Virus record (IMG/VR): IMGVR_UViG_3300035670_000438
Location: 1 to 43,577 of that record
Length of the DNA stretch: 43,577 nucleotides
Direction: 5' to 3' (one strand)
Source: a virus
The notes under the pieces were generated by a model. The model was given only the letters and a program-made list of their open reading frames with translations, ran no database searches and had not been told where the DNA came from. Numbering within the stretch: the stretch's first letter is position 1; every line of letters begins with the position of its first letter. The position numbers and the translations under genes were made by a program. This document shows, one piece after another, positions 4,820 through 39,605 of the stretch.

Positions 4820-5482
4820 ATGGCCAAGAAACCAATCACCAAGCCCACCACCCCGGAGAAGGTGGCCGAAACTGCACTGGCCGAGTCCTCATCCCTTCAG
4901 CGGACATCGGACAAGTTGGCGATCGTCACCCGGGGCGACTACCAGCGCAGCGCCCTGTTCCTCTCCGAGCTGAAAACGAAGCGTGATCAGATCGAGACGA
5001 AGCGCAAGGAGATCACCAAGCCCATCGACGAAGCGAAGAAGCGCATCATGGCCCTATTCAAACCCGTCGTCGATCAGCTCTCTCTGGCGATCACCACCGT
5101 TGACCGGAAGATGATCGACTACGTGTCCGCCGAAGAGGAGAAGGCCCGCAAGGAAGCCGAGGCACAGGCCAAGAAGCTCCTCAAAAAGACCGGCAACCGT
5201 GAGCTGGCCGAGGACGTGAAGGCCCTCGCCATCGAACAAGCGACCCCGCAAGCCTCCGGCGTTCAAGTGCTCTCGTACTGGCACGCCGAGGTGACAAACC
5301 TCGACGCCTTGGTGTCCGCTGTGTCGCAGTCCATCGTGCCGACCGAGTGCGTCCAACCCAACGAGGTGTACCTCAACAAGTTGGCGCGGCTGCACCAGGA
5401 CCCGGCCAAGGCGCCGCCGGGGGTCAAGTTCGTCGAGGTCCGCAAGACCGGTCGCGTCGGTGGCGGGGGCAACGTGCTGTGA
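4820..5482 (+). CDS. Coiled-coil phage recombination-module protein, 220 aa
   Basis: ATG 4820 lies one base after the HIRAN stop. Residues about 50-120 form a long charged helix (ITKPIDEAKKRIMALFKPVV, then a Glu/Lys/Ala-rich coiled coil). The C-terminus contains YWHAEVTNLDALV and an ending PGVKFVEVRKTGRV. This layout is familiar from proteins encoded beside phage recombination nucleases and annealing proteins, generally of unknown or Gam/Gp157-like function. It overlaps the helicase start by four bases, so the two are coupled. It probably binds or protects DNA ends, which is inference from position. Confidence 0.7.
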   Translation: MAKKPITKPTTPEKVAETALAESSSLQRTSDKLAIVTRGDYQRSALFLSELKTKRDQIETKRKEITKPIDEAKKRIMALFKPVVDQLSLAITTVDRKMIDYVSAEEEKARKEAEAQAKKLLKKTGNRELAEDVKALAIEQATPQASGVQVLSYWHAEVTNLDALVSAVSQSIVPTECVQPNEVYLNKLARLHQDPAKAPPGVKFVEVRKTGRVGGGGNVL

Positions 5483-7071
5483 GACTCTCGTTGCACAACA
5501 ACGAATGGTTTAAGGCCGACAGCTCCCCCTCGGGCGGGGAGCTGTTGGACCTTCACAACATGCCCGGCCCGTACTGGAACAGTCGACAGTGGATGATCCC
5601 CGTCGACCTCGGTTGGCGGTTCGGTTGTGCTGATACGACCGACACTGAAATGTACTTCGCCCTTCTCGACCAAGTGAACCCCAAACTGTTCCCCTGGCAG
5701 AAGGAGGCGGTCGTCCGTACTGTTCTCCGCAAGAACTTCCTCGCCGTGTTCGAGATGGGCCTCGGCAAGACCGTCTACGCCTGCGAGGTGATGCACCTCA
5801 CCAAAGCCGCGACCGCCGTGATCGTCTGTCCGTCCGCGGTCAAATACGTTTGGGAGTCACACCTCGACATTTGGTATCCCGGCCACCCCGAGGTCCAGGT
5901 GATCGAGAAGGGCAAGGATTCGTGGAACGCGCCTATCATCGTGGTGAGCTACGAGTTGGCCGTCAAACACTGGCAAGACGGTTGGTGCAAAGAAGGCGAG
6001 GTCAAACACCCGGCCGACGTGATCGTGTGGGACGAGGCGCACTACCTCAAAGAAGAGGACACCACCCGCTCGAAGATGGGGCGCGACGTGTGCCTTGCCC
6101 ACAAGCACCAGTACAAGATCATGCTCACCGGCACGCCCATCACCAACGAACCGAAAGACCTCTGGCACGTCAACCGGTGCTTGCGGGGTTTGACTTTCGG
6201 GGGCAAGTACGACTTCACCCATCGATACTGCCTCATCGACGTGAACGACTACGGGCACCCGGTCGTCCACGGGCTCGACGACGACTATGCCGAGGAGCTA
6301 CAGAAACGGGTGTCGACCTACTCTCTTCGAGCCACCAAGGACGACCCCGCGGTGGCCAAGCACCTCCCGCCTCTGACCATGCAACGGGTCGATGTGAAGA
6401 AACAGAAGGGCACGGATTGGCGTACCATGCTGGACAAGTGGTCCGGTGAGAGGAGAATGCACGATGCCGACCTCGAAGCGTACCTTCAAAAGACGAGCAG
6501 CGCGAAGGTCCAGCCTGCAATCGACCTCGCCCTCGAAGCCCTCGACGGAGGACACTCCCACATTGCCATCTTCACCTACTTCCACGACACCGCGCACACC
6601 ATCACCGAGCACCTCAGAGGCGTGGGAGAAGATGTGGTGGAGGTCACTGGAAACATTCCTCCAAAGGCTCGTAAGAAACTGCTCGATTCCGCCCGTGCAA
6701 AGAAACGATGCATTCTGGTTGCTACGATGCGTTCGGTTGGTGAAGGCATCGACCTCACCTTCTGCACCGGCTCCATCCTCGCCGAGCTGTCCTACGTTCC
6801 TGCGCACATCATCCAGCTTATCGGACGAGTGCATCGCCTCTCTTCTGGTAAGCACGCCCACGTCTGGATCCTCACGGTCAAAGGGACGCTCGACGAGGTA
6901 ATCGTCGAACGCCTCTTGGAGAAACAGAAGAACATCAACGCCATTTTCGCCGCCGGCACGACCGAGAAGGCATTGGTCAGTGCGCTCACGCCCGCGCCAG
7001 TCGATCATCAATCCATCGTGGACGAGTTGATGGTTGCAATCTCGAAGCGCAAGGAAGATCCCTACGTGTAA
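5479..7071 (+). CDS. SNF2-type superfamily 2 helicase, 530 aa
   Basis: The GTG at 5479 overlaps the previous stop (GTGA) and is preferred, because extending further upstream adds only out-of-frame residues. All SF2/SNF2 signatures are present: FPWQKEAV (71-78), motif I GLGKT (94-98), DEAH (185-188), motif III LTGTP (216-220), motif V GEGIDL (421-426) and motif VI QLIGRVHR (446-453). It is about the size of phage SMARCAL1-like translocases, which remodel forks or anneal strands. With HIRAN upstream and UvrD-type helicase downstream it forms the DNA-handling core. It is cytoplasmic, and all key residues are intact. Confidence 0.9.
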   Translation: MRLSLHNNEWFKADSSPSGGELLDLHNMPGPYWNSRQWMIPVDLGWRFGCADTTDTEMYFALLDQVNPKLFPWQKEAVVRTVLRKNFLAVFEMGLGKTVYACEVMHLTKAATAVIVCPSAVKYVWESHLDIWYPGHPEVQVIEKGKDSWNAPIIVVSYELAVKHWQDGWCKEGEVKHPADVIVWDEAHYLKEEDTTRSKMGRDVCLAHKHQYKIMLTGTPITNEPKDLWHVNRCLRGLTFGGKYDFTHRYCLIDVNDYGHPVVHGLDDDYAEELQKRVSTYSLRATKDDPAVAKHLPPLTMQRVDVKKQKGTDWRTMLDKWSGERRMHDADLEAYLQKTSSAKVQPAIDLALEALDGGHSHIAIFTYFHDTAHTITEHLRGVGEDVVEVTGNIPPKARKKLLDSARAKKRCILVATMRSVGEGIDLTFCTGSILAELSYVPAHIIQLIGRVHRLSSGKHAHVWILTVKGTLDEVIVERLLEKQKNINAIFAAGTTEKALVSALTPAPVDHQSIVDELMVAISKRKEDPYV

Positions 7072-7090
7072 CCAAACAGGAGAGAGCACA

Positions 7091-8590
7091 ATGAAACGTA
7101 AATGGAGCAAGCAGCAACAAGACATCTTCGGCTGGTTCGAGAAGGGGACCGGCAACCTCGTGGTCCGTGCCCGGGCCGGCACCGGCAAGACCACCACCAT
7201 CCTCGAAGGTGTGAACTATGCCCCCGAGGAGAACATCCTCCTCGCCGCTTTCAACAAGCGCATCGCCGACGAGTTGGCCCAGCGGTGCTCGAACGGTTCG
7301 GTGCACGTCAAGACACTGCACGCCCTCGGCTACGCTTTCATCCGTAGAGCGTGGTCGGACCTCGGCCCGTTGGAGGTCGATGCCAGGAGGACGCTCGGGC
7401 TTCTCTACGCCCACGCCAAAGCCGAGCACCTCCCCTACATCGGCAAGCTACCGGCCCGGTGGATGGCCAACCTCGCCACGCTGATGAAAGAGCTGCACCC
7501 CTTCGACGCCGACGACGACAACGTGATCGAACAGGTGGGACTCGACTTCGGCACGCTGCCCGACCTCTACAAGATCGGGTGGGGCCTCCACCGTGTGCTC
7601 CCGATCGTCAAATCAGTCGTGCGCCAGTCCCGCGAGTACACCGGCAAGGTCGACTACGCCGACATGTTGTTCCTCCCCCTCGTCTTGGAATTGGCCGAGC
7701 CCCTCTTCGACCTCGTGGTGGTCGACGAGGCTCAGGACATGAACCGAGCACAGCTCGACCTTGCGCTGATGAGCTGCACCGACGAGGGCCGGGTGTGTGT
7801 GGTCGGCGATGACAAGCAAGCGATCTACGGATTCCGTGGGGCCGACTCCGGTGCCATCGACCGGATGAAAGAGCAACTCCAAGCTGTCGAGATGCCGCTC
7901 ACCGAAACCTACCGTTGCCCGCAAGCTGTGGTCCGCGAGGCCAACAGGCTCGTGCCCGACCTCGTGTCGAACAAACACGAAGAGGGCTCGGTCACGGTGG
8001 CCAAGACTGAAAACGATCTCCTCGCCGTCGCGGCGAAAGGCGATTTCATCCTCTCCCGCCTGAACGCCCCACTGGCCCACACCTGTCTCGCCTTCCTCAC
8101 CCGCAACATTCCTGCCCGCATCGTCGGCCGGGACGTGGGCGAGACTCTCATCCAACTCATCGACAAACAGTCAGTCAACGAGGGTGAGGCCCGCATCGGC
8201 GATTTCCTCGTTGCCCTCAAGCAATACGAGGTGGTCATGGTCCGATCGTTGGACGAGGCCGACCGGCCCGAGGCCATCGACTCGCTCCTCGATTTGACGA
8301 GCACCCTCACCACGTTGGCTGGTGAAGGGTGCATGACAGTCGGCGATTTGAAAACCAGAATTCGGTCGTTATTCGTCGACACACCCCCCGAGGACATGGT
8401 AGTCCTGTCCACCGTCCACAAAGCCAAAGGACTGGAGGCCGACCGCGTGTTCATCCTCAAGCACACCCTCTACAACTTCAGCACGTCTGACGAAGAACAG
8501 AACATCGAGTACGTCGCCATCACCCGCGCCAAGAGGGACTTGGTGTGGGTCGGCGAGAACTACGGCAATGCCGTGCGAGGCCAGAAATGA
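7091..8590 (+). CDS. UvrD/Rep-type superfamily 1 helicase, 499 aa
   Basis: ATG 7091 follows AGGAGAGAGCACA. Motif I is AGTGKT (29-34), Ia AAFNKRIADEL, II VVDEAQD (about 210-216), III VGDDKQAIYGFRG (about 237-249), IV ETYRCP, V STVHKAKGLEADRV and VI EYVAITRAKRDLVW (about 470-485). All catalytic residues are intact. The protein is short compared with cellular UvrD, as the accessory subdomains are reduced, which is common for phage members. It should unwind DNA 3' to 5' for replication or recombination. It overlaps the methyltransferase start by four bases. Confidence 0.9.
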   Translation: MKRKWSKQQQDIFGWFEKGTGNLVVRARAGTGKTTTILEGVNYAPEENILLAAFNKRIADELAQRCSNGSVHVKTLHALGYAFIRRAWSDLGPLEVDARRTLGLLYAHAKAEHLPYIGKLPARWMANLATLMKELHPFDADDDNVIEQVGLDFGTLPDLYKIGWGLHRVLPIVKSVVRQSREYTGKVDYADMLFLPLVLELAEPLFDLVVVDEAQDMNRAQLDLALMSCTDEGRVCVVGDDKQAIYGFRGADSGAIDRMKEQLQAVEMPLTETYRCPQAVVREANRLVPDLVSNKHEEGSVTVAKTENDLLAVAAKGDFILSRLNAPLAHTCLAFLTRNIPARIVGRDVGETLIQLIDKQSVNEGEARIGDFLVALKQYEVVMVRSLDEADRPEAIDSLLDLTSTLTTLAGEGCMTVGDLKTRIRSLFVDTPPEDMVVLSTVHKAKGLEADRVFILKHTLYNFSTSDEEQNIEYVAITRAKRDLVWVGENYGNAVRGQK

Positions 8591-9096
8591 ACCGCATTCC
8601 TCATCACACGAGCAAGGCCCGGGGCACGTACTATTCGGAATGGGGCACGCCCACGGAGGTACTGCAACTCGTACGAGACACCTTCGGCAGAATCGACCTC
8701 GATCTGTGTTCATCCGCCAAGCACAACAAGGTTGTGGGCGCGAGAAACTTCTTCACGAAGCACGAGCCGTGCCCTTCCGCGGACAGCTTCCTCGAATTGG
8801 ACATGCTCCACTCAAACGTGTGGTGCAATCCTCCTGGTCCGTCGGGATTGGTCATCGACTTCTGGCGTCGCTGGTTGGCCTGTATGGCCGCCGGGGCCAA
8901 CGGCGCCTTCCTCATCTTCAACCTCGACCATTGGCGAATGTTGGTCCATCCTACAGATGAGTTCTTCATCTGGATCCCGCGCTACCGGCTCAAGTACATG
9001 GGCGCACCTTCTCAAGCCTCGTTCCCGTCCGGCGTCGTGTTCACACAACAACCGAAGATCCCGCACGGACACCTTCTTCGTTGGGGAAACCTGTGA
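8587..9096 (+). CDS. Phage DNA N6-adenine methyltransferase (Dam-like), 169 aa
   Basis: ATG 8587 overlaps the helicase stop (ATGA). The sequence has the order typical of the phage Dam_MTase family: EWGTP (18-22), IDLDLCSSAKHNK (36-48), the catalytic motif CNPPG (80-84, a variant of D/N-PP-Y/F/W) and SFPSGVVF near the C-terminus. The family transfers a methyl group from S-adenosylmethionine to adenine in DNA. Likely roles are protection from host restriction or marking its own DNA. It is coupled by GTGA overlap to the nuclease gene that follows. Confidence 0.85.
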   Translation: MNRIPHHTSKARGTYYSEWGTPTEVLQLVRDTFGRIDLDLCSSAKHNKVVGARNFFTKHEPCPSADSFLELDMLHSNVWCNPPGPSGLVIDFWRRWLACMAAGANGAFLIFNLDHWRMLVHPTDEFFIWIPRYRLKYMGAPSQASFPSGVVFTQQPKIPHGHLLRWGNL

Positions 9097-9905
9097 AACT
9101 CTCCAATCCCAAGCTGGCAACGCTCTCTCTCGATACCGGGTCGCCGGCCGGAATCGGCTTCTGGTCTGAGGTCTGCCCGAAACGGCAGACGATGAAGAAG
9201 CTCCACCCCGAGGTCGTGGACCTCGGCACTCCCAACATGCAAGCAGGAAGCGTCGGCCACGCCCTGATGGCACAACACTTCCTCGGCAAACAGGTGGACA
9301 CTGCAAAGGTCCGCTTCGAGCCAACGCCAGACCCCAAAGCCGAGGCGTCCGGCGTCAAGATGTTCCGTCAATGGCGTGCCCGCTACCCGTCGGTGTCCCA
9401 CTTCGGCTGTGTCGAGCACGTCGAGCTACTCGTTGATGTCGGCAAGGATTGTGAAGAGAGCTTTGGTGTCCCCTACACCTGCCGGGTGGACCTTGCAACC
9501 ACAGTCACCAAGTCAGTCGGGCGGGCGTTGAAGGACACCTACCACCTCGCCCGTCCTCTCTCCTCGGGTTTGTGGATCGTCGACCACAAGTTCCACAAGA
9601 GCGACTGGCAATTCGACCCGACCCCGTACCGTGAAGGGTTGCAGTCCGCAGGCTACCAACTCGCGTTTTGGTGGATGACCGGGCAGCTTCCCCAAGGAAT
9701 GATGTTCAACCACGTATTTCTCGACGGCGACGCCAAGCTGACAGTGTGCCCACCACCTTCCAAGGATCAGTCCGAGATGTTTGTCTCGTGGCTCATCGGC
9801 GCGAAGCGGCGGCGCGAGGCCACCCTCGGTTGGGCGAATGCCGCGGCTTGTTGGTATCCCAACCGGTGCATCTTCCGCACCCTATACCTTTGCACAGGAG
9901 CATAG
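9093..9905 (+). CDS. Cas4-like PD-(D/E)XK exonuclease, 270 aa
   Basis: GTG 9093 overlaps the methyltransferase stop. Nuclease residues are visible in order: H56 (GSVGHALMAQHF), D133 (CRVDLATT), D164-x-K166 (WIVDHKF) and Q189 (SAGYQLAFWW), which fits the RecB/Cas4 fold. An N-terminal Cys28 and three C-terminal Cys (253, 259, 267) match the one-plus-three arrangement that holds an iron-sulfur cluster in Cas4/AddB-type nucleases. Spacing between the last three is longer than in classical Cas4. It is followed by a Sak4-like recombinase, the usual exonuclease-annealase pairing. No CRISPR array is nearby. Confidence 0.8.
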   Translation: MKLSNPKLATLSLDTGSPAGIGFWSEVCPKRQTMKKLHPEVVDLGTPNMQAGSVGHALMAQHFLGKQVDTAKVRFEPTPDPKAEASGVKMFRQWRARYPSVSHFGCVEHVELLVDVGKDCEESFGVPYTCRVDLATTVTKSVGRALKDTYHLARPLSSGLWIVDHKFHKSDWQFDPTPYREGLQSAGYQLAFWWMTGQLPQGMMFNHVFLDGDAKLTVCPPPSKDQSEMFVSWLIGAKRRREATLGWANAAACWYPNRCIFRTLYLCTGA

Positions 9906-9908
9906 ACC

Positions 9909-10859
9909 ATGGCCAAGCAGGCAGCATCAAAGTCCAAGTTCGAGGAGGAGCACGGCTTCTCGTCCGACGCCTTGTTCGAGGACGGCCCCGAGAAACCGTT
10001 GGAGGAATCGCACTTCACCATCCACGCGCCGCAGGGTGTGGGAAAGACCTTCCTCGGGCTGTCGGCCGACCCATCCTACCCGGACGATCTGCACGCCAAG
10101 AAGAAGATCGTCTTGGAGAACATCATCCACATCGCGTTCGACAAGGGCGCCCTCGACGGCATCGGCCAGTACGGTCTGTCGGTGAAGCATCGCGTCGACG
10201 CCCGCAAACTGTTGCGTGCCCCACGCAAGAACCAGAAACAACCCCACGCCGAGGACGGTGCAATGCAGGCCCTCGACTGGATCACGGATGCGGTAGCCGA
10301 ACGCATCGACAAGTACAACATCAAAGCGGTCATCTTCGACACACTGACCAACGGCTCGACCGAGATCCTCAAGTACGCCGAGAACATGGACTTCCGTTCC
10401 GAGAAAACAGGCAAGGCCGACAAGTTCGCCATGTGGGCGTTCATCGGCCACGCCCTTTCAACACTGTGGGAGTGGGGCGCCAACCAACCGTGTCAGATGA
10501 TTTGGCTCTGCCACTCGAAGGCGGTCGGTGATGAGGGCCTCGTGGCCGGCACCCACATGAAACCGGGCTCGGACCAAGCCCGCCTCGAACAACTCAAGGC
10601 CCGCGCCAACAAAGGGCTCGGTGATTGGGAGATCGTCCCTGCGATGGACGGCAAGAAAGCGATCGAGGTGTTCACCTCGCACAGCTCCCTGATTGCTACG
10701 ATGACCGCCGACTACAACGAGGAAACGAAACGGTACGAACGGTTCGTTCTCCCCCGCGGTGGACGCGGCTTCCTCGGCAAGAACCGCTGGTTCGATTTGT
10801 TGGGGGAACGCGAGCCGGCCAACCTGCAAAAGATCTTCGCCAAGATTCGGAGGGGCTGA
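9909..10859 (+). CDS. Sak4-like RecA-fold ATPase, recombination, 316 aa
   Basis: ATG 9909 has the ribosome site AGGAG, three bases after the nuclease stop. Walker A is APQGVGKT (40-47) and Walker B is AVIFDTLT (D144). The segments MIWLCHSKAV and GSDQARLEQL follow. The pattern fits AAA_24/Sak4 single-strand annealing ATPases encoded in phage recombination cassettes. It is expected to load on single-stranded DNA made by the adjacent Cas4-like nuclease. Length is slightly longer than the usual 220-300 residues. Confidence 0.8.
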   Translation: MAKQAASKSKFEEEHGFSSDALFEDGPEKPLEESHFTIHAPQGVGKTFLGLSADPSYPDDLHAKKKIVLENIIHIAFDKGALDGIGQYGLSVKHRVDARKLLRAPRKNQKQPHAEDGAMQALDWITDAVAERIDKYNIKAVIFDTLTNGSTEILKYAENMDFRSEKTGKADKFAMWAFIGHALSTLWEWGANQPCQMIWLCHSKAVGDEGLVAGTHMKPGSDQARLEQLKARANKGLGDWEIVPAMDGKKAIEVFTSHSSLIATMTADYNEETKRYERFVLPRGGRGFLGKNRWFDLLGEREPANLQKIFAKIRRG

Positions 10860-11127: not shown

Positions 11128-11151
11128 CAAAGCTACCAAGGAGTGTCTGTC

Positions 11152-11814
11152 ATGGGTCGTTACAGTGAAGAGGTCGTGAAGAAGGCGAGTGAGCGCCGGA
11201 ACCTGGCGGTCGGGTTCTACAAGTTCAAGTGTGTCCAGGCGATGCGCCAGCCGCCGAACGAGGAGTCGGGCAACATGCGGGGCATGTTCGTGTGGGCGCC
11301 GCTCAAGAAGGACGGCAGCGAGGGCCGCCCGACCGTGCGGGACTACATGACCTACCCCCTGCGGAACGAGAAGTTCCCCGGCCACCAGGAGCCGAACACC
11401 ACCGGCCTGACCGTCCCGGTCGTCCAAGCCGCGTTCCCGAAAGAGTGCCCGCTCTACCCGCGGACGGACAAGGACACCAAGAAGCTGATGTACAAGGGCA
11501 AGGTCATCAGCAAGGACGAGGAAGAGTCGGCGCGTGAGGAGGCCGGGCGGGCGGCGCTCGACAAGCTCGACGCGCTCGAACTCGACCCGACGCCGATGGT
11601 CGGCAAAGAGGTCTACGCCAAGATCACCTACGAGGACGGCAACGACTTCCCGAAGATGCGGAACTTCTGCGTCGAGTTGCCGGCGGGCACCACCCTCGTC
11701 CCCGAGGATCAGTGGATGGCGGCGGTCAAGACCGGCGGCAGCAAGAAGGACAGCTTGCCGGCCGCGAAGTCGTCCTCGGGCGGCGGCAAGAAGAAGTCCA
11801 AGTTCTCGCGCTAG
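11152..11814 (+). CDS. DUF669/SSB-like phage protein, 220 aa (tentative)
   Basis: ATG 11152 follows AAGGAGTGTCTGTC. The opening MGRYSEEVVKKASERRNLAVGFYKFK recalls DUF669-type phage proteins that accompany replication or recombination genes. The middle is beta-rich, and the C-terminus is a flexible Ser/Gly/Lys tail and not the acidic tail of classical SSB. Position between the recombinase and the polymerase supports single-stranded DNA binding. No motif proves it. It is coupled to the next gene through a strong ribosome site overlapping its stop (TAGGAGG). Confidence 0.5.
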   Translation: MGRYSEEVVKKASERRNLAVGFYKFKCVQAMRQPPNEESGNMRGMFVWAPLKKDGSEGRPTVRDYMTYPLRNEKFPGHQEPNTTGLTVPVVQAAFPKECPLYPRTDKDTKKLMYKGKVISKDEEESAREEAGRAALDKLDALELDPTPMVGKEVYAKITYEDGNDFPKMRNFCVELPAGTTLVPEDQWMAAVKTGGSKKDSLPAAKSSSGGGKKKSKFSR

Positions 11815-11823
11815 GAGGCGGCC

Positions 11824-11967
11824 ATGACCAAGAAGAAAGCCAAGAAGAAGCCGACCAACGCCCGCGGCCCGTACCACCGCTGGGTGCCGGGCAAGCGCGG
11901 CGGCATGGTCTGTTCCAAGTGCGACGCCACCTACGGTATGCACGCCAACCCCTGCAACCGAAAGTGA
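11824..11967 (+). CDS. Mini zinc-knuckle protein, 47 aa
   Basis: ATG 11824 is preceded by the strong site TAGGAGGCGGCC. The first dozen residues are mostly lysine (MTKKKAKKKPT), then come GPYHRW, C-S-K-C and a late Cys (C44). One small metal site is likely. The stop is seven bases before the polymerase start. Nucleic-acid binding is inferred from the basic N-terminus. Confidence 0.65.
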   Translation: MTKKKAKKKPTNARGPYHRWVPGKRGGMVCSKCDATYGMHANPCNRK

Positions 11968-11974
11968 GTGCACG

Positions 11975-14371
11975 GTGAAGATCGCTGGGGCAGACTGCAA
12001 ACGGTGTCCTCTGCGGAACCGAACACCAGTCCTGCCCCAGCCCTTCACCGGGCAGCCCAAGTTCATCTTCGCCGGGCAGTCCCCCGGCATCTCCGAAGAG
12101 ATCGAGCGACGCTACTTCTGTGGTTGGTCGGGCAACTACTTCGACCTCGTGTTGGAGAAGCTCGACATCCCCCGGCGGCAGCTCTACGTCTGCAATGTAC
12201 TCCTCTGCCGGGCTGACGACCTCGGGCCGGCTGAGAGGCGCCGAGCGATTGAATGTTGCTCGGGGCGCCTGTGGAACGAGGTCAAACGATTCAAGTGCAA
12301 AACAGTCCTCGCGGCCGGCATGGACGCGATGTGGGCTTTCATGGAGTATTCGGGCACCGAGTGGATTGGGCCTGTGTACGACGTAGAGGAGGGCCGGTAC
12401 AAAGGTTGGCACGTCCTCCCTACCCTCCACCCCGCGTTCGTCAGTCGGTTCCGTGGCTACGGACCGGTGTTCACCGCACACCTCGAACGAATTTGGAAGT
12501 ACGTGCACGGGGAACTGCCACCTTGGAAGTGGCCACCGATCGAAGTCGAGGAGAACGACCGTGCGAAGAAGCTACTCACCGCCATCCTTCATTCCCGCGA
12601 ACTGGTGGCGTTTGACGTGGAAAACATCCCAAAAGGACCCGAGAAGGGAAAGCTCCTCTGCCTTGGTGTTGGAGACACAAAGAGGGCAGTATCTTTGGAC
12701 TGGCCCATCCAACGACGCGATCTGCTCAACCTCATCCTCAAGATCCACGCTTCAAAGAAGGTCAGGAAGGTAGCTCAATTCGGCCAACACGATACCTGGA
12801 TCCTCGGCCTCCACGACATCGCAGTCGGCGGCTACGTCGAGGACACATTGCCGATGCACCAAACCCTCGCACCCGAGATGAGCCAGAAGAAGCTCGGGCA
12901 CGATCTCGGGTTCGTCGGCTGCATCCACTGGCACATGCCGCGGTACAAGACCGAGTTCGGCGGTGACGATGCGAACAAGTACGTCAACGCCGACCCTACC
13001 GAGCGCAAGTTCTACAACGCCCGCGACTGTGTAACTACCGCGTTGAACGCGAAGGCGATGTTGGCAGAGTTGGAAGAGGACCCGGTACAACTCTCCCTCT
13101 ACCGTGAGAGCTTCGCCCTCGGACAGATTGCTATCAAGATGAAACGGGTGGGGTTGCTGGCTGACGGTAGCCGGTACGCCCGCCACGACTACATCCTCCG
13201 ACGGCGACAGCGGCGGGCGGGCAAGCTACTCAGGAAGATTGCCCGGAAGATTGGATTCAAGGACTTCAACCCCGGGTCGGGCCGCCAGCTCCAGGAGTTG
13301 TTCTTCAAGAAGTTGAAGGTCGTGCCCACACGTTACTCGAAAAAGACGGGCGCCCCGTCGTTGAAAGAAGAGGCCCTCCTCGGCTTGCTGACACACCCAA
13401 AAGAAATCGTGGGCGTGTGCGCGAGGCTCACCCTTGCCTATCGTCGGTGGGTGAAATTGCGCGGCTTCCTCAAGAAACTGCCCCGGGGCGGCGGGCGCAT
13501 CCATCCGAGCATTCGCGTGAACGCTGCCCGCTCCGGTCGATGGATTGTCACCGAGCCACCGCTGACCACGCTACCGAAACCGGTCGTGGCAATGGTGAAG
13601 TCCGGCCCCAACAAAGGCAAGAAGCGGGTCGTCGCCCCAGGAATGCGGGACGTGTTCGTTGCCGCGGAAGGCTGGACGATTGTTGAGGCTGACTACAAAC
13701 AGCTCGAACAGTGGATCCTCTCTGTACTCGCCGATGACACCACAGCTTTGGGGTGGCGTGCGGCCGGGCTGGACATCCACCGTTTGACTGCCGCGGCCAT
13801 GCTCGGCCTCACACCGGAAGCAGTCACCAAGCCGCAGCGGGAGTTCTTCAAACGGTTCAGGTACGGACACAACTACCGAGGCAGCGACCGCCGATTGCAC
13901 GCTGTCCTAGTCCCCGACTTCCCCGACGTAACCTTGGAGCAAGTCCACCACTTCCGCGATCTGATCAGCCGACAGCATCCTCGCATAGTCCTGTTCCAAG
14001 ATCGACTGTTCGAGCAGGCAAAGGAAACGGACTGTGTGGTGGCTCCAATCTCCGGGCGCGTCAAGCGATTCTATGGCCAGGTGAAGATCACCGAGGTTTG
14101 CAACTACCCGATTCAGATGACAGCGGCGGATCTCATCAATCGTGCTATCCGTGAAGTCGACCGCGAGTTTGGAGACTGGTCGGTGCATCGCATCCTTCTT
14201 CAAATCCACGACGCCCTTCTCGTCGAGACACGCAAGCCAAAGCAGGCGATGAGGATACTCAAGAACGCAATGGAGCGTCCAGTCATCTTGAACAACAAGC
14301 CGGCCAGGTTCGAGGTGGACTTCAAGGTCGGGCCGAGTTGGGGCGAACTACAGGAGGTCGAGTTCAAATGA
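11975..14371 (+). CDS. DNA polymerase I with N-terminal uracil-DNA-glycosylase domain, 798 aa
   Basis: GTG 11975 is chosen because the protein then starts right before the first iron-sulfur-type cysteines. Residues 1-170 resemble family 4 uracil-DNA glycosylase: C8-x2-C11, GQSPG (34-38), a second Cys set near 94-108 and HP at 152-153. Residues about 205-365 carry the 3'-5' exonuclease motifs: D214-V-E216, D273 in QFGQHDTW, and Y347-x3-D351. The family A polymerase follows: motif A EADYKQLEQ (D573), motif B KPQREFFKRFRYGHNYRG (about 619-636) and motif C QIHDALLVE (743-751). No 5' nuclease domain is present. A glycosylase-like N-terminus is known for the SPO1 polymerase. The motif I residues of active glycosylases are altered, so it may bind and not cut uracil. 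Confidence 0.9.
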   Translation: MKIAGADCKRCPLRNRTPVLPQPFTGQPKFIFAGQSPGISEEIERRYFCGWSGNYFDLVLEKLDIPRRQLYVCNVLLCRADDLGPAERRRAIECCSGRLWNEVKRFKCKTVLAAGMDAMWAFMEYSGTEWIGPVYDVEEGRYKGWHVLPTLHPAFVSRFRGYGPVFTAHLERIWKYVHGELPPWKWPPIEVEENDRAKKLLTAILHSRELVAFDVENIPKGPEKGKLLCLGVGDTKRAVSLDWPIQRRDLLNLILKIHASKKVRKVAQFGQHDTWILGLHDIAVGGYVEDTLPMHQTLAPEMSQKKLGHDLGFVGCIHWHMPRYKTEFGGDDANKYVNADPTERKFYNARDCVTTALNAKAMLAELEEDPVQLSLYRESFALGQIAIKMKRVGLLADGSRYARHDYILRRRQRRAGKLLRKIARKIGFKDFNPGSGRQLQELFFKKLKVVPTRYSKKTGAPSLKEEALLGLLTHPKEIVGVCARLTLAYRRWVKLRGFLKKLPRGGGRIHPSIRVNAARSGRWIVTEPPLTTLPKPVVAMVKSGPNKGKKRVVAPGMRDVFVAAEGWTIVEADYKQLEQWILSVLADDTTALGWRAAGLDIHRLTAAAMLGLTPEAVTKPQREFFKRFRYGHNYRGSDRRLHAVLVPDFPDVTLEQVHHFRDLISRQHPRIVLFQDRLFEQAKETDCVVAPISGRVKRFYGQVKITEVCNYPIQMTAADLINRAIREVDREFGDWSVHRILLQIHDALLVETRKPKQAMRILKNAMERPVILNNKPARFEVDFKVGPSWGELQEVEFK

Positions 14372-39215: not shown

Positions 39216-39605
39216 CTAGCCTCTTCTTCTTCCATCTGGCCAGGATGGTGTCGAGGGATTTGTACTCCGTCCTTCGAGGAATTCGATGTACTCTTTCCCG
39301 AGGAACTCGAACACTGGAATCCCGATCTTGTCCGCTTCGACAATCTCGGCCCGAGTCCCGATCGACTTCTCCCAACCAGCCACGAGGACCACCGCGTCCG
39401 CCCTTCGCAACAATTCGAGCGTACCTCTCAACCAGAACTCCGCGGTGATCGTTCCGTTGAAGAACCTCGTGTTCGTGTGTGGGCACAGGGGCATCGCCCC
39501 TGTCAGAGCCACCGCAAAGGCTACGCTCTCGGCCCGTCGGACATTTTGTTCGACTTCCCATGTATTGACCCCACGGAACGGCCCAGCAATGTAGATAACC
39601 TTCAT
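39216..39605 (-). CDS. DUF4406 / nucleoside deoxyribosyltransferase-like protein, 129 aa
   Basis: ATG 39605 overlaps the previous stop (ATGA). The opening MKVIYIAGPFRGVNTWEVEQN is the substrate-binding signature of the family. The mid-chain ADAVVLVAGWEKSIGTRAEIVEA holds the GTxxE motif whose glutamate is the catalytic residue in deoxyribosyltransferases and nucleotide N-glycosidases. Such enzymes remove or exchange bases on (deoxy)nucleotides. Beside a UDG-polymerase fusion this hints at nucleotide control. The last 20 residues (RSTNPSTPSWPDG) look weakly conserved, and a frame change is possible. Confidence 0.75.
   Translation of the reverse strand: MKVIYIAGPFRGVNTWEVEQNVRRAESVAFAVALTGAMPLCPHTNTRFFNGTITAEFWLRGTLELLRRADAVVLVAGWEKSIGTRAEIVEADKIGIPVFEFLGKEYIEFLEGRSTNPSTPSWPDGRRRG

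Follow-up and report, generated by a model that had tools for sequence, protein, structure and literature searches.

Proteins that join a uracil-DNA glycosylase (UDG) to a family A polymerase have been described before. DNA polymerase I of the Pseudomonas phage PaBG and Lupandier group of jumbo phages (gp205) carries, in this order, an N-terminal UDG, a 3'-5' exonuclease and a family A polymerase; the PaBG genome paper of 2020 reported eleven phages with this three-domain protein and likened the PaBG UDG to the Thermus thermophilus (Tth) enzyme UDGa, 1UI0 (PMC7412058). The family A polymerase of phage phiLo (PDB 9QHS, 2026; 1142 amino acids) has an N-terminus that matches the fused-UDG profile at 2.6e-28. 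This match begins after the CxxC segment, so the polymerase probably lacks the first two cysteines. A search of the open-access literature found no paper on the phiLo polymerase.

The roles of individual residues were mapped on Tth UDGa (PMC5387724). In that enzyme E47 and N80 select uracil and exclude thymine. The E41Q mutation lowers k2/Km approximately 900-fold and also abolishes detectable binding, the double mutant E41Q-G42D is just 5-fold below wild type, and N89A costs about 7-fold. H155S leaves Km intact and lowers k2 by more than three orders of magnitude.

The polymerase described here is encoded by a 43,577-base virus record, the whole of which was analysed and is referred to as the window. 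An earlier reading of the sequence alone (the sequence-only reading) had assigned a UDG-like domain, an exonuclease and a family A polymerase to a single frame, and its coordinates and frame proved exact, with the domains in that order (Table 1). The full-length model is confident throughout (mean pLDDT 93.6, pTM 0.91). Pfam profiles match the UDG domain (PF03167, amino acids 27-176, 6.6e-16, 59 bits against a cut-off of 24.3) and the polymerase domain (1.2e-48, 166 bits against a cut-off of 34.3), which rules out chance.

Table 1. Features of the polymerase gene and of other genes in the window
Feature	Position	Strand	Basis or remark
UDG-like / 3'-5' exonuclease / family A DNA polymerase, 798 aa	11975..14371	+	ORF, Pfam, full-length model; single unbroken frame, GTG start at 11975, stop ends at 14371
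Family-4-type UDG domain, aa 1-181	11975..12517	+	PF03167, model, PDB fold matches
Cluster cysteines C8 and C11 (CKRC)	11996..12007	+	family 4 pattern
Motif A GQSPG, aa 34-38	12074..12088	+	Q35 = Tth E41, S36 = Tth G42
E41, thymine-excluding residue	12095..12097	+	= Tth E47
F48, uracil pocket	12116..12118	+	= Tth F54
N74, reads uracil N3/O4	12194..12196	+	= Tth N80; invariant among fused relatives listed
Cluster cysteine C78	12206..12208	+	aligns with Tth C84
C94 and C95, one being the fourth cluster ligand	12254..12259	+	alignment (Tth C100)
Motif B His152-Pro153	12428..12433	+	= Tth H155-P156
3'-5' exonuclease domain, ~aa 185-365	12527..13069	+	D214, E216 (DxE), D273, Y347, D351 kept; the last three align with Klenow D424, Y497, D501
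Family A polymerase domain (DNA_pol_A), aa 413-791	13211..14347	+	PF00476; D573, E578, R622, K626, Y630, Y634, H745, D746 align with Klenow D705, E710, R754, K758, F762, Y766, H881, D882
SNF2-type helicase	5347-7071		replication module
UvrD-type helicase	7034-8590		replication module
Dam-like methylase	8545-9096		replication module
Protein without Pfam or PHROG match	9081-9905	+	replication module, adjoins Sak4-like recombinase
Sak4-like recombinase	9909..10859	+	phrog_124, PF13479; replication-module neighbour
Unassigned protein	11143-11814		replication module
Basic CxxC (zinc-ribbon-like) ORF, 47 aa, VCSKCDATYGMHANPCNRK	11824..11967	+	ends 7 bp upstream of polymerase start
DUF7768/DUF4406 protein	39216-39605	-	distant likeness to nucleoside 2-deoxyribosyltransferases

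The structure comparison proposed in the sequence-only reading gave a family 4 UDG fold for the N-terminal region rather than an unrelated one. Modelled alone (pLDDT 95.1), the domain has its best PDB matches among the family 4 UDGs 1VK2, 1L9G and 1UI0 and UdgX (Z 20-21, rmsd 2.4-2.7, ~172 residues), with family 5, MUG and TDG ranking lower; Tth UDGa scores Z 20.6, and the N-terminus of the phiLo polymerase aligns over 159 residues with Z 14.7. The NCBIfam model TIGR00758 gives 48.2 bits, below its cut-off of 125.3. The family 4 cysteines that had been claimed are present at the sequence level (C-x2-C, C-x15/16-C), where C8-x2-C11, C78 and C94/C95 fit Tth C13, C16, C84 and C100. C95 suits the helix register of the family and C94 suits the x15 spacing of the Tth enzyme. 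We infer that the domain holds a [4Fe-4S] cluster.

The active site combines conserved and altered positions. The uracil-reading Asn and the motif B His of family 4 are both present (N74 and H152), as are the equivalents of Tth E47 and F54. Motif A of family 4, GE(A/G)PG, is not matched, and the absence of an acidic residue from GQSPG, as previously claimed, is real. A second active-site change had been missed: Tth N89, the catalytic-water Asn of motif 3, is also lost, the corresponding segment reading CRADDLGP. Tth UDGa, in contrast, is free-standing, has GEGPG and retains N89. Mycobacterium smegmatis UdgX shares the fold (Z ~20-21) but has GEQPG and a KRRIH loop (R-loop) in which His109 forms a covalent bond; the window protein has neither, and UdgX-like covalent trapping was rejected. 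The likeness to the SPO1 polymerase put forward in the sequence-only reading holds insofar as both are family A polymerases that begin with a UDG-like domain. It is otherwise loose, as SPO1 gp31 is far more degenerate, lacking the cluster cysteines and carrying QENPF as motif A and Ser in place of the uracil-reading Asn.

The polymerase domain has the two catalytic Asp residues, the O-helix Arg and Lys and the motif C His-Asp of family A, in addition to the PF00476 match; the position of Klenow E883 is occupied by Ala747. The exonuclease profile PF01612 gives a match of only 0.0087, under its cut-off. However, the complete DnaQ-like proofreading set (DxE, D, YxxxD) is found, and D214 and E216 are invariant in two alignments of fused relatives (A1 and A5). 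Because the catalytic residues of both domains are kept, polymerase and proofreading exonuclease are predicted to be active.

The fusion had been considered rare, a view that our survey overturns: the UDG-exonuclease-family A polymerase architecture is known and common among phages. IMG/VR was scanned four times with degenerate-codon motifs, every scan demanding G[E/Q]xPG..E......F.G.[S/T/C]G, and this gave at least 224 usable loci, at least 205 of them distinct. The UDG is fused to PolA in one open reading frame in at least 141 of these distinct loci and is clearly standalone in at least 29. The remaining loci are cut by contig ends or have long tails. Most of these tails consist of UDG and exonuclease, in some cases with the polymerase in a following frame, or contain an intein. 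The fusion also occurs in annotated phages, namely vir526 (Methanomicrobiales), Microcystis Mel-JY34, Brevundimonas MaInes and StAshley, Lysinibacillus LysYB1, and Pseudomonas Almagne and PMBT14, as well as in Rctr197k and environmental genomes, and in the solved structure 9QHS. Among the matches listed, all 141 fused loci keep the uracil-reading Asn. Degenerate UDG-like domains are found on polymerases of SPO1-type, Serratia, Streptomyces and Microbacterium phages. A supposed oddity thus becomes a large family with graded active sites, from canonical E with N89, through Q without N89, to the destroyed pockets of the SPO1 type, and this series makes selection for excision, for binding or for the fold alone testable.

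Several variants were observed in this survey. In two loci (L163:7762-12645, + strand, and L134:3613-5601, - strand) an intein with a LAGLIDADG endonuclease splits the UDG domain beside the third cluster cysteine; in L152 an intein lies between UDG and exonuclease, and in L037 and L048 inteins lie within the polymerase. In MW202477 (cto1L10; L008:3178-3687) a separate polymerase ORF is closely preceded by a degenerate UDG-like ORF, with motif A TDQPT and the cysteines kept; the fusion may here have been split or be decaying. Among the matches listed, one or more cluster cysteines are missing from 26 of the 49 fused UDG domains of the E-[AG] type, and all four from 13. These domains always keep the uracil-reading Asn and are possible cluster-free family-4-like domains.

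The motif-conditioned IMG/VR scans found 42 distinct fused loci with glutamine at the position of Tth E41, of which 34 are Q-[STC] and 8 are Q-[AG]. GQSPG was considered as a specific mark of fused polymerases and rejected, since E-type domains are mostly fused too (at least 49 fused, at least 17 standalone). The catalytic His (Tth H155) is kept in all but one of the 42 loci, and 32 of the 34 Q-[STC] loci keep the pocket with both E41 and N89 changed. On polymerase trees the distribution of Q and E needs approximately 10-14 changes; at least five are forced by well-supported branches, so the Q type is not a single lineage. This variant of the fused polymerase is apparently undescribed.

Among the matches listed, N89 is kept in 33/49 E-[AG] and 9/50 E-[STC] domains, compared with 2/34 Q-[STC] and 1/8 Q-[AG]; N89 thus tends to be missing where residue 42 is polar, in the E type as well. 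Residue 42 corresponds to Asp64 of UNG, and a transfer of the water-handling job to this position would fit the counts, although this is only a lead. In independent-pair tests on the polymerase trees, neither the association of N89 loss with Q nor that with polar residue 42 was significant. Coupling of Q with polar residue 42 and N89 loss, while suggested by the raw counts, was therefore rejected.

A sample not conditioned on the motif was collected with nothing but the polymerase domain of a single Q clade (A7) as the query; the window lies outside this clade. The UDG domain is readable in 18 members of the clade. Q (GQ[S/C/N]PG) occurs in 17 of them, GMGPA in one and E in none, a count that leaves out far matches of other types (L237-L240, 21-23% identical). 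The four cysteines, Asn, His and the equivalents of Glu47 and Phe54 are invariant in all 18. The UDG and the polymerase are about equally conserved, with identities of 0.55 and 0.54, and a comparison of eight close members gives a median dN/dS of 0.17. We conclude that the A7 clade maintains a functional Q-type domain that shows no decay. The best relatives of the window protein share approximately 25-29% identity, and there are no close ones in viral_contigs or genome_contigs, so the result on selection applies to the A7 clade. Alignments of distant members, whether full-length or UDG-only, were too diverged to serve as search queries.

A chain that combines uracil recognition with copying prompts the question of how the phage responds when its replication fork encounters uracil. 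We tentatively favor, as the most likely reading of the residues, an attenuated or re-wired uracil glycosylase tethered to the fork. The protein would be a replicative, proofreading polymerase whose family-4-type UDG domain searches the DNA of the fork for uracil arising from deaminated cytosine or dUMP incorporation. We infer that uracil is bound, that some glycosylase activity remains, that the domain acts at the fork and that recombination deals with the abasic site. Uracil would be flipped into the intact pocket formed by N74, F48, E41 and H152 and excised with altered water handling (Q35 and S36 in place of Tth E41 and G42, and N89 lost), at a lower or re-wired rate. The resulting abasic site would halt copying.

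The Tth mutant data point both ways on whether the window domain cuts. Since H155 serves k2 and not Km, retention of the His favors retained chemistry, and the rescue of E41Q to within 5-fold of the wild type by Asp at position 42 is counted in the same direction. The uracil-reading Asn kept throughout the listed fused loci and the conserved domain of the A7 clade also support this reading. Moreover, a pure binder would have no need of H155, yet almost all Q-type loci keep it, and for this reason we rank excision above both a sensor and a structural role. Against excision, the window has both of the changes that are costly in Tth UDGa, and position 42 is Ser rather than Asp. In addition, SPO1, Serratia and Pseudomonas phage lineages keep the domain with the pocket destroyed, which indicates that the fold can be retained for another reason.

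Archaeal family B polymerases read ahead for uracil in the template. A family A counterpart, in which the domain binds template uracil and stalls the polymerase without cleaving it, corresponds to the recognition without cutting suggested in the sequence-only reading. We do not favor it, but it is a live alternative and the strongest of them. The pocket residues are kept while the water-handling E41 and N89 are both changed, a combination that recurs across the Q-[STC] loci, and one Q clade is under purifying selection. However, E41Q in the Tth enzyme loses detectable binding as well, Q with an acidic neighbor is active, and the His needed for cutting but not for binding persists in the window and in all but one of the Q-type loci. 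The archaeal enzymes belong to a different family with an unrelated pocket, and the parallel would apply only if the domain is such a sensor. It is doubtful that the Q-type polymerases, including that of the window, constitute a built-in uracil checkpoint that stalls without excision and has arisen repeatedly in phages as an analogue of archaeal read-ahead.

A role in which uracil is irrelevant, the old UDG fold serving polymerase stability, processivity or contact with a partner, is also improbable. Polymerases of SPO1, Exiguobacterium phage and actinophages keep the domain without the uracil pocket, about half of the listed E-[AG] fused domains lack a cluster cysteine, and the confident full-length model would suit such a module. 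A purely structural role, however, would not hold the pocket residues and the cysteines, and the window keeps the equivalents of Asn, His, Glu47 and Phe54 and all four cysteines, the same set that is invariant in the A7 clade. It is very unlikely that the pocket recognizes some other base, for example hypoxanthine or a modified pyrimidine of phage or host DNA. In favor of this, the phiLo polymerase was solved with a modified template and the fusion-bearing phage MaInes has 7-deazaguanine genes. Against it, the window protein keeps the equivalents of Glu47 and Asn80, the residues by which Tth UDGa selects uracil over thymine, and the Dam-like methylase is the only base-modification gene recognized in the window.

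Loss of the pocket may be related to thymidylate metabolism. In all eight cultured phages whose domain has lost the pocket Asn, namely SPO1, Exiguobacterium 132, LysYB1, Almagne, Serbin, Triscuit, Zuko and MScarn (L006, L007, L012, L212, L213, L214, L217 and L218), a thymidylate synthase or dUMP hydroxymethylase lies within a few kb of the polymerase, compared with one of six cultured phages with an intact pocket, a comparison in which several phages are related to each other. A dCMP deaminase is often also found beside the polymerases of the eight. Phages that rebuild thymine may thus give up the pocket yet keep the fold, which we regard as a lead only.

A canonical-motif UDG also heads a 1340-amino-acid Pol III alpha ORF (PHP, DNA_pol3_alpha, finger and HHH) in IMGVR_UViG_3300005323_000046 (L149:273-4292, + strand), a single case on a 65.7-kb viral contig. 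The link between UDG and replicase seems to have arisen more than once. If this case holds, UDGs have been joined to two unrelated families of replicative polymerase. This would speak for a role of the domain at the fork and suggest that selection favors the pairing whatever the polymerase.

The polymerase gene of the window sits in a phage replication module (Table 1). The searches of the 43,577 bases revealed neither a dUTPase nor a thymidylate synthase nor a second UDG, and thus no link to dUTP metabolism, which counts against the excision reading; near other fused genes there were few such matches, with queries that came from a handful of phages and had low sensitivity. The DUF7768/DUF4406 protein is the sole possible nucleotide-metabolism gene seen in the window. 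The protein that adjoins the Sak4-like recombinase contains the residues LWIVDHKFHKS ... SAGYQLAFW and looks like a Cas4/RecB-type PD-(D/E)XK nuclease. The CxxC protein encoded immediately upstream of the polymerase might be a small zinc-ribbon partner.
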